Shown piece by piece: positions 30,035-37,194 of a stretch of 64,000 bases of DNA. This stretch comes from Crambe crambe (Eukaryota; Porifera; Demospongiae; Poecilosclerida; Crambeidae), in NCBI GenBank assembly GCA_963924555.1, contig OZ004598.1:5554858-5618857 (forward strand). The letters are read 5' to 3'. Below the pieces are notes generated by a model. That model was given only the letters and a program-made list of their open reading frames with translations, had not been told where the DNA came from and made no database searches. Position 1 is the first letter of the stretch. Every line of letters begins with the position of its first letter. The translations under genes were made by a program, and so were the position numbers.

Positions 30035-30693
30035 CTAACATGTACACGAACTTGCAGCCACTGGTTCTCCAGGATTTCCATCTAGAAGTCCAGGATTGTT
30101 CTGGGAAGTGGGAGTACCTGGGCTTTTATGCAGGGCTTTAGCTAGTTGAATAAATGCCTCACTGATGCCAGAGTTAGTCTTGCAGGAAATCGAGTGGTGT
30201 AATTCAAACTCGTGAGCTTTTGCAAATGATTTTGAGGTCATCTCGTCTATTTCCAGAGGCTCAATGTCGATCTTATTTCCAATTAGCATTCGAGTTGCAT
30301 TTGGGGCAAAGTTCTGAGTGTCCTTGATCCATTGGGAGAGGTAGTGAAGAGAAGATGCCTCTGCCACACTATACACAAATACAGCAGCATGTGCATTGCG
30401 ATAGTAATTGCGAGTCAATGTCCTGAAGCGTTCCACTCCTGCTGTGTCCCAAATACTCAACTATAAAGTAATAAACAATATCATTTTTTGGCTAAAACAA
30501 TCCAGTTGGATCTTACCATGATTGTCTCACCATCCACCTTTATGACTTTAGTGCAACTGTCTATTCCCGTGGTAGCCGTTTGATACTCATCGAATGTGTT
30601 GTCTTTAAGCCTCCTGAATAGAGATGTCTTTCCTACCCCCAGTTCTCCCAGAAGCACCACTTTATACGTCGGACCTCTGCTAGGAGCAGCCAT
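30035..30693 (-). CDS. Rab-like small GTPase A
   Basis: Two exons (30693-30517, 30460-30035), 200 residues. P-loop GELGVGKTS near residue 16, switch I threonine in TATTGIDS, switch II WDTAGVERFRTLTRNYYRNA, G4 GNKIDIE, G5 SCKTN. It ends SSCTC, a dual-cysteine prenylation tail typical of Rabs. The catalytic glutamine of WDTAGQE is replaced by valine, predicting slow GTP hydrolysis. The intron falls directly before the L-x-x-WDTAG segment, exactly as in the four GTPase genes that follow on the opposite strand. Vesicle traffic is the family role; which compartment cannot be said. It is the most canonical of the cluster except for the Gln. Confidence 0.88.
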
Positions 30694-30793
30694 TGCTATC
30701 GATATCTTTGTAGACCTGTCACGTGATAGATATTAGGTGTGGTTTGTATCGTCGTCTGTACTGTACCAGCAGCTCAGCTAGCTCAGCTCAAGA

Positions 30794-31468
30794 ATGGATG
30801 TTGCTCAGTACAAAGTCATTTTGCTTGGGGATCCAGGGGTTGGAAAAACTACGTTTTTCTTGCAACTTCGCGATAGCTCTTTCGTGGACACAGAAACTCG
30901 TCCGAGTGCATCTATTGGAGTGGAAGATTTGGAGTACACACATATGATTGGCGACACAGAAGTCAAAGTAAGGAGTTACATAAGAGATCTTCCATTCTTA
31001 ATGACTTTCCTCCATCTATTGTAGTGTTATCTGCATGATACTGGAGGAGGGGAAAGGTTTAGGACTCTGACCTCTAACTTTTATCGTAATGCATCTGCAG
31101 CCATTTTGATGTATAGTGTGGAGGATCGATTCACTTTTGAGAACCTGCAGGAGTGGATAGAGAATGCATGTGATAGTATTTGTGACATTGATAACTTTGT
31201 GTGGGCATTGGTAGGCAACAAATCTGATCTGCCTTTGGAGATAGAGCATGACACCATTCTAGCACGACAGGAACAACTTGGAACTAATCTGAGCTTCTTC
31301 ACTTCAGCCAAGACTGGAGAAAATGTGACTGCTACATTTGAACGGATCATTGAAGAACTACATGCCAGAAAGATTGATGGCGGGAGGCCAACTAAAGCTT
31401 CTAGCTCTTCCAAGGGAGTAAAAATAGGTGGTACTCATCACTCACAAGGAAAGAGTGGTTGCTGTTGA
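30794..31468 (+). CDS. Rab-like small GTPase B
   Basis: Two exons (30794-30967, 31025-31468), 205 residues. P-loop GDPGVGKTT, switch I PSASIGVEDLEYTH (the usual Thr is shifted or replaced), switch II HDTGGGERFRTLTSNFYRNA, G4 VGNKSDLP, G5 TSAKTG. It ends GKSGCC, a CC geranylgeranylation tail. Switch II has GGGE where Rabs have AGQE, so the catalytic Gln is lost and an extra Gly gained. The 5' end is divergent to GTPase A, 100 bp between start codons, implying a shared promoter. GTPase C lies 110 bp downstream on the same strand. Confidence 0.88.
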
Positions 31469-31580
31469 GGATGTTTTCTTTTTATCGTTTGTTCCCTGTA
31501 CTAAATTCTTGCTACTGATAATTTTGTGCACAAAAATAAAGTGGGCGTGGCTAGGTTGCAGCTCGATCGCGAGCAAAGAA

Positions 31581-32315
31581 ATGGAGGCAATTCCCGAGTA
31601 TAAGATAATTTTGCTGGGTGAACCTGGTGTGGGAAAGACAAACTTCTTCTTCAGACTGATGAACGGTGTGTTTATTGGTAATACAGCATCTACTGTGTCT
31701 ACAGGGATAGAACACATGGAGTACAAGATGAAAATCAATGGATCTTACATAAAGGTGACTATGAACTCAGGTAGATAGCTCTCATAAAGCCTGTATAGAA
31801 ATCACCTGAAGCTTAAGCCTGTTGGGCATGGTGACACTGATGATTTCATTTCTGTTTAGGCTAATCTGTATGACACTGCTGGAGGGGAACGATTTCGAAC
31901 ACTGACTTCCAACTATTATCTTAACTCTGATGCTGCCATACTCATGTACAGCGTGGAGGACAGTTATTCGTTTGAGCGCCTCAAAGATGAGGTTGACAAT
32001 GCCCAAAAATTTGTCAATTTTGACGAATTTGTGTGGGTTCTGGTTGGCCATAAATCTGACCTGAGTTGTGAAATCTCTCCGGATACTGTTGCAGCCTGGG
32101 CTGCACAGCTTGAAACCAAACTCAGTTTTTTTGCCTCATCAAAAACCGGAGAAAACGTAGTCCAACTGTTTGATAAGGTTATCTCCCATGTACACAAGGT
32201 TCGTCGTGGACGGCCAGCTCGGCAGTCATATGGGCAAGTGCATACTCTTCATAAACCTCTTATCACCAAGTCGCACAAAGAGACTGCTAGTACCACTACA
32301 GCTTGCAATTGCTAG
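31581..32315 (+). CDS. Rab-like small GTPase C
   Basis: Two exons (31581-31754, 31860-32315), 209 residues. P-loop GEPGVGKTN (Ser/Thr of GKT/S followed by Asn), switch I TVSTGIEHMEYK, switch II YDTAGGERFRTLTSNYYLNS, G4 VGHKSDLS (Asn of NKxD replaced by His), G5 ASSKTG. The tail TTTACNC can be prenylated. Catalytic Gln is replaced by Gly. It is closest to GTPase B (shared FRTLTSN, ILMYSVED, EFVWVLVG/FVWALVG), so B and C are probably a recent duplicate pair. Weaker guanine specificity is expected from the G4 change, but this is inference. Confidence 0.87.
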
Positions 32316-32448
32316 CTGGCAACTTTCATTTTGAAATCATAGATAGTTGAACACTGGTATCATTGCAATTTTTTAATATCATTAAATTATTTTTATGCTA
32401 GGGTGAAAGTACAGTATGAAAATAATAATGGTAGGTAATGAATAGGTA

Positions 32449-33182
32449 ATGAATAGACCCACAGATCAACCCTACAACATAATTTTGACTGGTCCCTTTG
32501 GAGTGGGGAAGACTACTATATTCAAGAAGTTGTCTAGTGAGATGCACTTGGATTGCAGGTATGAAAGTGTGAGTAGTGTTGCTAAGAGTATGTTGCACTT
32601 GGACAAGTGGACTCATACAGCTCATGTGGATGGCACTGAAATCAAGGTAGGTAAGTACATTTGTAGTAGGCTAGCTCTGCTCAACATTGTGCACTTCTCA
32701 ATGTGTGTGTGTGTGTGTAGGCAACTTTATGGGACACAGGAAACTTGGAGCATAATGGAATAAATAATGTGACTCGTTCTTACTTTAGACAAGCCGTGGG
32801 AGTGATTCTTGTGTATGATGCGGGAAACAGAGAGACAATTAGTGCCCTTACTGACTGGATGTTGTGTGTCAAGGAGAACTTTAGCTGGCAGTGGCAAAGC
32901 TATATCACATTTGCTCTCTGGGAGAATGACAGAGACCAACCTATGAACCCTGTCACACCCGAGGATCTGAACACCTTTATTGCTGGGAATGGACTGAGTA
33001 AAGAAGTGTGTTACAGTGTCAGTGCATACACCGGGAGCAATTTATTTGAGAGCTATCAGTCTGTACTGGAAAAGGTCCATCATCGGTTGACAGAAATGAA
33101 GTCTTTTAGTGGCTGTGAATCTCAGCATAGAGCCGAAGCACCAGTTGAGTCTTCAAGGGGCTCATTTTGTAGCAAATGTTGA
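32449..33182 (+). CDS. Divergent Rab-like GTPase D with degenerate G3/G4
   Basis: Two exons (32449-32646, 32721-33182), 219 residues. The P-loop GPFGVGKTTIF is intact. Switch I is extended and unlike Rabs (SVSSVAKSMLHLDKWTH). Switch II is WDTGNLEHNGINNVTRSYFR: WDTG is kept but the AGQE-R part is gone. G4 reads FALWENDRDQ in place of GNKxDL. G5 VSAYTG is Rab-like. The end CSKC resembles a CxC prenylation tail. The same intron position proves kinship with A-C and E. It likely binds nucleotide phosphate but may not hydrolyse it or may not select guanine; it could be a pseudo-GTPase. The intron contains a (TG)n run at 32703-32718. Confidence 0.82.
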
Positions 33183-33370
33183 AAGGATTCATGTACAATG
33201 TTCACATTAAACCGTATCTTACAAATGACTGTGGACAGCTATTCATGTCTTTTGTTATTGTGCAGAATTTGCATTTTCAGTTGTCTTGTAATTATTCACA
33301 ACTGACGTAGCACTACCTAAAATGGAAAGGGGTAAGGCCTAAGGTCACTTGGGTGGTGGAGAAACGAGCA

Positions 33371-34078
33371 ATGCCTGTAGAATATAGCTTTGTGTTGGCT
33401 GGGAAGTACGGAGTGGGGAAGACTTCCATCTTCAAGAAGCTCAAGACGGGCCACGCCCCCGAAGGAATAACGGAGGGAAGCAGCAGGAATGCCTTTTCTT
33501 ATACCACCGATGATGGGGGGCTGGAAAATTACTTTTATGAGAGAGAAATCAATGGTAGAAAAATCAAGGTAGGATACTTGCCAATACGTCTAAATGAGTG
33601 TTTAATCTATCTAATCCAACAGGTGACTTTGTGGGATACAGGTGGTCAAGAACGTTATGAATCAATGACTGCCAACTATTATCGCAATGCTAATGCAGTC
33701 ATCTTGGTCTATGCACTCGATGAAGAGAGCACTTTCTATTCTCTTAATGAATTGGTAGCAGAAGCCAAGGACGTCAATCGCCTCGGAGATCAACTAGTGT
33801 TAGCTGCTTGGGGGAGCAAGTCAGACCTCCCAGCTTTTCAAAAGACTGTGAAAGAAGATTCAATTGCTGCTCTAAGTAGCAAGTTTAAAATTCCAAACGA
33901 GCTCAATTGTAAAGTGAATGTATTTGATGATAGTGTAGAGAGGGCCATGCGAACTTTAACAGAATATGTAGACCAAATGTTTGCAAGTATTGACACCAGT
34001 AATGACGATGTCATGACCTTGGACAGAACCGAACCAAATCCATCACAACCTAGGAACAGATGTTGTGACAGATTTTAA
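33371..34078 (+). CDS. Divergent Rab-like GTPase E
   Basis: Two exons (33371-33568, 33623-34078), 217 residues, taking the ATG of MPVEYSFVL; the frame extends a few GTG codons upstream without an ATG. P-loop GKYGVGKTSIFKKL, very similar to GTPase D (GVGKTTIFKKL). Switch I is expanded (AFSYTTDDGGLENYFY). Switch II is canonical, WDTGGQERYESMTANYYRNA, so unlike A-D the catalytic Gln is kept. G4 is WGSKSDLP (Asn replaced by Ser); G5 is lost (CKVNV). The C-terminus RCCDRF is CaaX-like rather than the CC or CxC of its neighbours. D and E appear to be a second duplicate pair. Compartment unknown. Confidence 0.84.
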   Translation: MPVEYSFVLAGKYGVGKTSIFKKLKTGHAPEGITEGSSRNAFSYTTDDGGLENYFYEREINGRKIKVGYLPIRLNECLIYLIQQVTLWDTGGQERYESMTANYYRNANAVILVYALDEESTFYSLNELVAEAKDVNRLGDQLVLAAWGSKSDLPAFQKTVKEDSIAALSSKFKIPNELNCKVNVFDDSVERAMRTLTEYVDQMFASIDTSNDDVMTLDRTEPNPSQPRNRCCDRF

Positions 34079-34112
34079 CAGTAATCAGGTTTTATATGAG
34101 TTTGCAGTTTGT

Positions 34113-34198
34113 CAATAATAGAGGTACTAACTGTGTTGAATACATTGACTTTGTTCAATAATAGAGGTACTAACTGTGTTGAATACATTGACTTTGTT
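34113..34198. repeat. 43-bp direct tandem duplication downstream of GTPase E
   Basis: Two identical head-to-tail copies, 34113-34155 and 34156-34198, each starting caataatagaggtactaac and ending attgactttgtt. They lie between the GTPase E stop and the NFS1 stop. Identity of the copies implies a recent slip or duplication. They may sit in the 3' UTR of one or both genes. Confidence 0.9.
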
Positions 34199-34243: not shown

Positions 34244-37194
34244 TCAGTGCTGGCTCCATTGAATTGACTTGAGGTCAATGCCTTCTTTCACCATCTCATA
34301 CAAAGGGCTGGGTAAAACAATTATTAAGTGGCATAAATAGATCATAAATATGAGTACCTCATCTGACGTAAAGTAGTAACACTTTTGACGCAATGTTTTA
34401 TGGTGTACTCTACCTCCTCATCAGTAGTGAAACGTCCGATTCCAAACCTACACAGCACACCTTGTATCAATATCAATACTACACAGCAACACTGCACTAT
34501 TTATGAACCTGATGGAAGAGTGTGCCAGGTCTTCATCTGCTCCTATAGCTCTGAGAACATAGGACGGTTCGAGAGATGCAGAGGTACATGCACTGCAGTG
34601 GAGGGAAAAAGTGTTCTCTTCCTTGCATGTCACACAATTTTAGAGTTATTTTACCTTCCAGAAGATAAAGCCACATTCTTCATGGCCATGAGCAAACTTT
34701 CCCCTTCCACAAAAGCAAAAGATAAATTTACACAGCCTACACATACAAATTATGGAAGGACCTGCCACAGCATAATATCATCCATACCATCATATGTTTG
34801 CTCAGGATCACCATTTCTAATCACATGATCCAACTGTGACATTATTCCATCTACCAGTTTCTTGGATAATCTTGAGATGTGCACACGGTCATACTACAAA
34901 TGAATAGACAAGGTGACCAGTGACCACACTGTTTGACACACCACATCCACACCCACTTCCATCTCCTGACCAGCGACGTAGCAAGCAGCTCCCAGTCCTA
35001 CAGCTAGTGTGTGTGGTACAGTACCACTGCGCATTCCTCTAAAAACACAAATAGCTAGACTCAGTCAGATGCATGCTTCCTTGCCCGTCTGCTGACCTCT
35101 CCTGCCCTCCACCACTCATGACTGGTTCTATTCTCACTCGAGGCCTTCTGCGTACATACAGTGCTCCAACTCCCTTGGGACCGTAAAGTTTGTGGCCACT
35201 GATGGACATGAGATCAATCTTGAGTTGATTAACATCCATTGGTATCTTCCCTACTGCCTATGATTACGATCATGGGGAAGACGAATATGCAACAGGATGC
35301 ACTAGGTACAGTACCTGGGCAGCATCAGTGTGGAAAAATACTTTCTTGGAACGACATAGTTCTCCTGCATAATATAATTGTTAAACTTTGCATTCAGCTA
35401 TATATTATTACAAACAACATACCTATCTCCTCTACGGGCTGTCTCACTCCAATCTCATTATTAACTGTCATAATCGAGACAAGTGATGTATCAGGGCGAA
35501 GTGCAGCTTCCAGCTCCTATAAGTAACGACTCATAGCATAGCATAGCATAGCATATGACAGTCACATGACAGCCACCTTGAGATCTATAACTCCATTCTG
35601 TTGCACTGGAAGATATGTCACTGAAAAGCCTTCATTTTCCATCGCCCTGCACGAATCCAACACACACTTGTGTTCCTACAGAACAATTTAATATGACGAA
35701 GGCAAAGGATGGAGAACCACTCACTGTCTGAACTGTAATTATGTGGTTCTTCTTTGCCTTGTAAAAATGTGCTATTCCCTGCACAAAAAAAAATATTCAC
35801 CAATCAATCTCTCTTGAAACCCTTTACCAAGTTATTACTTTCAGGTCGTCTATCATACTAACCTTAATAGCCATGTTATTTGCTTCGGTAGCTCCACTGG
35901 TAAACACAATCTCACGCGGATCTGCTCCTATTAATGTTGCCACTTGCTTGAATCGAAAAATAATCACCACATAATAAACACAACTGGAAGTGGACTCACC
36001 TCTCTGGCTACTTCAACTGCCTTTTCACTCTCCCAGCCATAAGCATGTGTACGAGAGTGAGGGTTTCCATAGTAAGCAGACAGGTATGGCATCATTGTAT
36101 CTAGAACACGTGGATCCTGGGGTACCAGCAGTACATAATGCAAATTGAGGTGTAGTGGGTTGCAGTCTATTATGCTGGCATAATTTCAGGCATAATATAT
36201 AGGTACTCTCATATTATGGGGTGCCGTTTGTCTCAAAATTCAGTCGGGAAGGAATTTACACAGGTGGTGGACATTTATCAACACGGGATGGACATTTACC
36301 ATCCTCAACACACAGGGGGTGGGGATTTACTAAATCTCAACCATGCTCACACACAGGGTGTTGGACATTTACAAAATCTCAACCATGCTCACACATGGGT
36401 GGTGGACATTTACAAAATCTCAACCATACTCACACATGCAGGGGGTAGACATTTACTGAATCTCAACCATGTTCACACACAGGGGGTGGGAATTCAACCA
36501 TATACTCACACAGGGTGGACATTTACTAAATGTCCACCACCTGTGTAGCTATGAGCATGGTTGAGATTTAGTAAATGTCCACATCCTGTGTTGATAAATG
36601 TCCACCGCCTGTGTAAATTCCTTCTCGACTGAATTTTGAGACAAATGGCACCCCATACTCTCAAGCATCATGCACAATGGTAGCATAATGTATTTTGAGG
36701 CATAATTAAGGGTCAAGGAAGCAAGTAATCTCACAAACCATAATTATCTAGGTATCATTGGAATGCATGCAATAATGGCTAGCACATGGCTAAACAACCT
36801 CTAGGTTGTGTGTGAAGAAGAAAACTCAGTAATATTATGGGCACAATCGAGAACATGATGGGGTCAAACAGGATAACAAGCATTAAAAAGAAAGCAAAAT
36901 AGGTAACTTTTTGCTCAAAAGCATAAAAATAAAAAAAAGCACAATAGATTGATGCCTAGTTGCATACCATTGGAGTAGTAGCTGCATTATCCAAGTACAG
37001 TGGTCTCACACTTTCATCCTGAGGAATATCAGTACCACCTACAGCATGCATGGTTAATTACATGTGCTAGCTAAGATTAAGCTGGCTAGAGACTGACTTG
37101 CTGTCACCACTTGCTGAAAATTTTGTGATGACACATGGAAACCTTTCATCAAGCGTTGATAGAGTCCGGGTACCCGCCTTGCTATCACATTCAT
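34244..37194 (-). CDS. NFS1: Cysteine desulfurase, mitochondrial
   Basis: About ten exons. The start [18 protein letters not shown] is Arg-rich, fitting a mitochondrial presequence. Further exons show the PLP-binding [20 protein letters not shown] (the Lys of GHK) and MSGGGQERG. The catalytic-loop exon reads [19 protein letters not shown], with the active Cys in SxSAC followed by LAHSSIR. The C-terminus is [20 protein letters not shown], almost identical to the animal enzyme as I recall it. NFS1 takes sulfur from cysteine for Fe-S cluster assembly on ISCU, with ISD11 and ACP as partners, and for tRNA thiolation. An intron at about 36125-36965 holds a fold-back repeat element. The gene diverges from RBM39 across 180 bp. 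Confidence 0.94.
36215..36657. mobile_element. Fold-back / MITE-like element with long inverted ends inside an NFS1 intron
   Basis: The left end tatggggtgccgtttgtctc (from 36215) and the right end, read on the other strand, tatggggtgccatttgtctc (from 36657), are inverted copies. The match continues through ...aaattcagtcg, ggaatttacacaggtggtgg and catttatcaacac for about 80 bp with few mismatches. Both ends start with TA, compatible with a TA target duplication as in mariner-like MITEs. An octamer tactctca also flanks both sides (with 5 extra bases on the left). The middle holds 4-5 degenerate tandem units of about 45 bp (catttac[at]aaatctcaac, catgctcacacac, aggg). No transposase is encoded. 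Confidence 0.75.

Follow-up and report, generated by a model that had tools for sequence, protein, structure and literature searches.

Five adjacent Rab-like guanosine triphosphatase (GTPase) genes, called here A to E, lie at positions 30035-34078 of a 64,000-nucleotide stretch of the genome of the sponge Crambe crambe (contig OZ004598.1 of assembly GCA_963924555.1, positions 5,554,858 to 5,618,857), which as a whole is referred to below as the window. They probably represent five of the nine members of a lineage-specific family of atypical Rab-like GTPases that seems to have descended from a Rab30/33/1-type ancestor, to have multiplied through local duplication and spread for the most part along a single chromosome, and to have become uncoupled from the standard Rab regulators. 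All five are intact two-exon genes with canonical GT-AG introns (Table 1), and all score above the cut-off of 21.6 bits against the Pfam Ras profile (PF00071; A 145, B 113, C 114, D 45 and E 78 bits), which bears out a preliminary description of this DNA as containing five adjacent Rab-like genes. Their best matches among solved structures and reference proteins are Rabs, the yeast YPT6 included, and not Ras, Rho or Ran.

The nine-gene family and its residue signature

The family was delimited in the 143-Mb C. crambe genome, in which 60 regions with Ras-like matches and two further pieces were modelled. The spliced models come from a home-made profile aligner, and the introns outside the nine genes are less certain; 150 of 379 candidates were scored, and the census of genome Rabs is a lower bound. 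The tree comprised 66 rows, namely 26 human references (23 Rabs, HRas, RhoA and Ran), 31 other Rabs of the genome and the nine family rows. Ras-, Rho- and Ran-like models were left out, as were six partial or unclear models with a Rab as the best match (L037b, L048, L049, L050, L052 and L064); L065 gave no model above the threshold, g032 lacks its first exon and the model of g044 lacks its middle part. In this tree A-E form a clade with g062, g029, g027 and g044 (support 96/94); the support values are rough, the tree program having flagged the bootstrap as not yet settled. The clade survives the masking of the G-box columns and of the helix 1 Phe described below with three long rows dropped (86/82), and after the removal of eight long or outlying rows A, B, C, g027 and g029 continue to group (78/92).

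Outside the window g062, g029 and g027 are located on the same contig (C21) at 4.33, 1.26 and 1.14 Mb, and g044 on contig C18 at 4.19 Mb. With the window itself at 5.55-5.62 Mb, eight of the nine genes, or four of the five separate loci, are found on C21, a contig of 5.67 Mb that makes up 4% of the assembly. No additional clear member was listed when the genome was searched with single proteins (all of A-E except B, together with g029, g062 and the terminal exon of g044), some weak matches lying at places left unmodelled.

The family bears a mark outside the active site: the Phe of the pattern GK[ST]xxF, in helix 1 after the P-loop, is present in all nine members, in none of the 30 other genome rows with data and in none of the 26 human references. 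The switch II Gln is lost in eight of the nine members versus 4 of the 31 other genome Rabs (Fisher p 5e-5, the rows not being independent). Its replacements are V, G, G, L, A, I, M and R, and the site therefore looks released from constraint and not selected for one particular residue. At the Phe of the RabF1 signature in switch I, where the alignment is gappy for D and E, Phe or Tyr stands in 0 of 8 members versus 26 of 29 other genome Rabs, counting only rows with data; the Trp that precedes the G3 Asp is kept in 3/9 versus 31/31. All nine have the Lys of the P-loop motif GxxxxGK[ST] and the Asp of both G3 and G4; within the G4 motif the Asn is kept in six members and the Lys in eight, the full NKxD being found in A, B, g027, g029 and g062. 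Gly60 is kept in six and lost in D, g062 and g044, and all eight members with a resolved end have C-terminal cysteines (g029 only one). The proposal of a lineage-specific Rab family with eroded G boxes, made in the preliminary description, is thus supported by a nine-row clade with no named ortholog among those tested. That description had listed the changes in G3, G4 and G5, missing the consistent change in switch I and at least four family members outside the window.

For the individual genes the multiple alignment confirms Val, Gly and Gly at the Gln position of A, B and C and the kept Gln of E; the Gln position of D, described earlier as missing, is occupied by Leu (WDTGNLE), both in this alignment and in the HMMER alignment to Rab11A. 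In the same way the G4 motifs NKID, NKSD, HKSD and SKSD of A, B, C and E stand, while that of D, which had been taken as lost (ALWEND), aligns without gaps as NDRD, with the Asn and Asp kept and the Lys changed to Asp. The G5 of E is indeed eroded (aligned as ELNCKV). The order V, G, G, L, Q along the cluster is not monotonic, the last gene keeping its Gln, and the loss of G-box residues can hardly be called stepwise, as it had been. The IGV of the RabF1 signature IGVDF is kept by B alone among the five, and C has His at the Phe position. The HKSD of C is unexceptional, because HKSD occurs as well in g056, whose Gln is kept, and TKVD in three other Rab rows; the G4 Asn is substituted in g034, g032, g047 and g056 of the other Rabs of the genome. 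At least two cysteines are found within the last five residues of each of A-E (CTC, GCC, CNC, CSKC and CCDRF), in agreement with the prenylation tails noted before, prenylation being judged here from sequence only and the CSKC of D not being a textbook geranylgeranylation motif.

Each of A-E has a single phase-0 intron at an identical profile position before the switch II exon. Both ends of this intron are seen in eight of the nine family members, and in g044 only the acceptor side. The common position had been taken as proof that the five genes arose by local duplication; the position is as described, but the intron predates the cluster and cannot prove such an origin, because four of the 31 other Rab rows (g019, g034, g058 and g059, on contigs C20 and C5) also carry it. 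Two Rabs outside the family that lack the Gln (Met and Ser in its place; C20:911078 and C20:2700764, L058 and L059) share the phase-0 intron. Some local duplication is nevertheless likely: B and C are adjacent and sisters in the tree (100/99), and over 45 bp of the P-loop the DNA of genes D and E shows 78% identity. Local duplication is thus supported for B and C, while a single clade of A-E is neither shown nor rejected (p value of the approximately unbiased test, p-AU, 0.294) and relatives are present elsewhere on the contig. Tandem duplication alone does not cause the loss of G-box residues, since five Rab8-like genes without introns, all found in some 28 kb (C11:4947787-4975525, L009 and L010), perhaps a retrocopy that was later duplicated, have DTAGQE and NKxD intact throughout.

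The nucleotide cycle and selective constraint

Since the P-loop Lys and both Asp residues (G3 and G4) do not vary within the family and the C-terminal cysteines are present, nucleotide binding and membrane attachment have probably been kept. The proteins would be prenylated, placed on internal membranes and loaded with guanine nucleotide, a prediction that is firmest for the five members with NKxD. The RabF1 Phe and the Trp before the G3 Asp belong to surfaces used by Rab effectors. The family is probably no longer tuned to the standard Rab guanine nucleotide exchange factors (GEFs), GTPase-activating proteins (GAPs) and effectors. Its output would then depend chiefly on the choice of gene expressed and the site of expression, and not on a full cycle of guanosine triphosphate (GTP) binding and hydrolysis. 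The likeliest pseudo-switches appear to be D, g062 and g044, in which Gly60 is lost as well. In E the Gln is kept and the base pocket altered.

The preliminary description had suggested that the loss of Gln blocks hydrolysis and leaves A-D permanently active on membranes, which we consider unlikely. The Gln is indeed lost in all four of these genes, its loss lowers intrinsic hydrolysis in some Rabs, such as Rab5 (accessible part of PMC3919269), and GTP-bound atypical GTPases of the Rho family controlled by their expression level do exist (accessible part of PMC13236570). For Rabs, however, one cannot safely conclude from a lost Gln that the protein is constitutively GTP-bound. According to the accessible parts of two reports (PMC3919269, PMC3919270), TBC GAPs bring Gln and Arg fingers of their own and can act on Gln mutants, and such mutants resist some GEFs: the activation of mutant Rab35 by DENND1 and of mutant Rab1 by the bacterial GEF DrrA is blocked, TRAPP still activates Rab1 mutants, and the mutation has little effect on the intrinsic hydrolysis of Rab1 but changes that of Rab5. 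Permanent activity also fits poorly with the loss of the RabF1 Phe, often accompanied by that of the Trp before the G3 Asp, and with a P-loop that bears no uniform change. Eight of the nine paralogs naturally replace the very residue that cell biologists mutate to obtain 'active' Rabs, which makes the family a natural test of what this Gln is required for, be it hydrolysis, GEF-driven activation or neither of the two.

As a speculation, for which we would claim little probability, the nine paralogs may form a chromosome-linked, non-switching Rab family of prenylated, nucleotide-loaded membrane labels free of control by GEFs and GAPs, in which membrane identity is conferred by differential expression of the paralogs and a rewired switch I recruits lineage-specific effectors.

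A family released from its regulators has to be distinguished from a set of decaying duplicates under relaxed selection that are on the way to becoming pseudogenes with no distinct function. Long branches (2.09 changes per column for D and 1.54 for E) and the diversity of residues at the Gln position would be expected from decay, and a fragment of about 110 bp on contig C3 (G000 C3:4445288-4445395, L069), which resembles the 3' end of D with 75% identity over 37 amino acids, is apparently a dead copy. Against this, all five genes retain their frame, splice sites and cysteine tail intact, none of 2000 single-base shuffles of the coding sequence stays open for any of A-E, and the P-loop Lys and G3 Asp are invariant across the family. 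Moreover, third codon positions have diverged fastest both between B and C (differences of 0.37/0.25/0.63 at the three positions) and between g027 and g029 (0.40/0.33/0.59), the pattern expected of coding sequences constrained since these duplications; five pairs formed from genes A, B, D and E show somewhat larger differences at the third position than at the first and second. The synonymous divergence (dS) is undefined through saturation for B-C, g027-g029 and A-C and amounts to 3.1 for A-B, and no ratio of nonsynonymous to synonymous divergence (dN/dS) is given for this reason. Taken with the intact structure of the genes, this pattern makes decay a rather improbable explanation.

Relationship to named Rabs and to other divergent families

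The preliminary description implied that no gene of the cluster would prove a clear one-to-one ortholog of a named human Rab, and this was checked against the 26 references both by the tree and by scores, with the result that no such orthology was found. The best and second-best human references score 136/127 bits for A, 99.4/99.0 for B, 89/87 for C, 70/69 for D and 80/76 for E, margins of 0.4 to 9 bits, in contrast to other Rabs of the same genome such as Rab11 (344/189) and Rab6 (352/163), many of the named Rabs having short branches. A was considered as a clear ortholog of Rab18 and rejected as such: its best solved-structure match is Rab18 with 131.5 bits, closely followed by Rab1B with 129.3, and among the references Rab18 (136) is followed by Rab1A (127). 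The grouping of A with Rab18 is absent from the best tree, and a tree forced to contain it is 18.3 log units worse. That A-E might be fast-evolving one-to-one orthologs of different named Rabs, brought together by chance, is very improbable indeed, for even the most favourable case, that of A with its structural match to Rab18 and a forced tree that is not formally rejected (p-AU 0.068), has to contend with margins of 9 bits or less in all five genes, with the nine-row clade and its common helix 1 Phe, and with the identical single-intron architecture of A-E.

The nearest group in the tree consists of Rab30 and Rab33B with g019, g034 and g032, the nine rows standing beside it and not nested within it. 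The Rab30, Rab33 and Rab19-43 proteins are metazoan Golgi Rabs derived from Rab1, full Rab43 not being among the tree rows; g019 and g034 share the phase-0 intron of the family, and in g019 it is the sole intron. The Rab30/33 group keeps DTAGQE and the Rab switch I signature in the rows with data, unlike the nine genes, which mostly lack them and none of which is a one-to-one counterpart of that group. Two nearly identical Rab30-like copies are found about 170 kb apart on C5 (5758500-5763000 and 5926500-5931500, L034 and L032), with TKVD at G4 and DTAGQE intact, the identity being that over the modelled exons.

Several points weigh against a single family of Rab30/33 descent that has left the control of standard regulators. 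The parentage is weak (72/87 in the full tree, 62/78 in the reduced and 76/66 in the masked tree), and a position of the nine rows beside Rab18 is not rejected (p-AU 0.267). The members are long branches, so that D, E, g062 and g044 could have been drawn together artefactually, and the support for the group that remains in the reduced tree is modest (78/92). D and E have no close relative, and constraint on them is seen in unbroken frames, in splice sites and tails that are kept, and in a slight excess of third-position differences; with dS saturated, the codon-position pattern covers the time since the duplications and not the present day. The accessible parts of the biochemical reports also describe some Gln mutants as poor GAP substrates (Langemeyer 2014, PMC3919270; PMC3919269). 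The evidence comes from the sequence of one genome, and the tree is without several human Rabs, among them Rab12, 19, 26, 34, 39, 40 and 42, and without the invertebrate RabX types.

Other Rabs with unusual G boxes offer partial parallels to the nine-gene family. Human Rab24 and Rab20 naturally have Ser and Arg, respectively, at the switch II Gln position, and Rab24 has TKSD at G4; these two group elsewhere in the tree, and joining them to the nine rows makes it 20 log units worse, an arrangement that is not rejected (p-AU 0.098). RabX1 and RabX2 of Trypanosoma brucei, compared here by description only, are similarly adjacent, tandem-duplicated and lineage-restricted, are predicted to be without full canonical motifs and are still membrane-located; they differ in belonging to another eukaryotic lineage, in being only two and in being reportedly non-essential in culture (accessible part of PMC2748683). 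The divergent Rabs D1-D41 of Tetrahymena and the large Rab sets of Trichomonas and Entamoeba likewise cannot be assigned to named subfamilies; these organisms are unicellular, and the accessible part of the report does not mention a family-wide loss of Gln for their Rabs (PMC2954822). The C. crambe family represents a divergent Rab expansion in an animal, and the same part of that report describes animal and plant Rab expansions as lying mainly within conserved clades. Metazoan Rabs lost in vertebrates include RabX6, listed as a duplicate of Rab1, and RabX4, which is reported from Amphimedon; they too were compared by description. The accessible part of the 2012 genomic survey from which they are taken (PMC3425129) has a single mention of Amphimedon and speaks of Rab types that are lineage-specific and difficult to place. 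No description of the nine-gene family was found among titles and the beginnings of abstracts in the sponge Rab literature with open-licence full text. As far as searched in open-licence literature, the family is new as a set, lineage-specific divergent Rabs being a familiar kind.

Layout and surroundings of the cluster

B-E are arranged head to tail on the plus strand, with A divergent on the minus strand, and the coding regions are separated by 100, 112, 133 and 188 bp (A-B, B-C, C-D and D-E, respectively). The coordinates are collected in Table 1.

Table 1. Genes and other features of the Rab-like cluster, in window positions (aa, amino acids).
Feature	Position	Strand	Details
Gene A, Rab-like, 200 aa	30035..30693	-	exon 1 30693-30517, intron 30516-30461, exon 2 30460-30035; DTAGVE, NKID, SCK, tail SSCTC
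Gap between the start codons of divergent A and B, 100 bp	30694..30793		candidate shared promoter region, on the basis of gene spacing only
Gene B, Rab-like, 205 aa	30794..31468	+	exons 30794-30967, 31025-31468; DTGGGE, NKSD, SAK, tail GCC
Gene C, Rab-like, 209 aa, sister of B	31581..32315	+	exons 31581-31754, 31860-32315; DTAGGE, HKSD, SSK, tail CNC
Gene D, Rab-like, 219 aa, most degraded	32449..33182	+	exons 32449-32646, 32721-33182; DTGNLE, NDRD, SAY, tail CSKC
Gene E, Rab-like, 217 aa	33371..34078	+	exons 33371-33568, 33623-34078; DTGGQE (Gln kept), SKSD, NCK, tail CCDRF
Phase-0 introns	A 30461-30516; B 30968-31024; C 31755-31859; D 32647-32720; E 33569-33622	A -; B-E +	profile position 50, directly 5' of the switch II exon

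When the window was cut into overlapping pieces and scanned by profile, with the best match taken per piece and strand, no other match exceeded 25 bits, a scan in which a weaker plus-strand gene near the cluster could hide behind B or C. Gene C had no match in a phage collection, which is uninformative on eukaryotes. The flanking reading-frame pieces match WD40 repeats and a class-V aminotransferase.

Retention of the 54-bp intron of gene E, which is stop-free and in frame, would insert 18 residues ahead of switch II. A 43-bp tandem duplication in two identical copies (34108-34198) follows shortly downstream of this gene, and a 41-bp minisatellite of 4.6 copies is located at 36298-36489.

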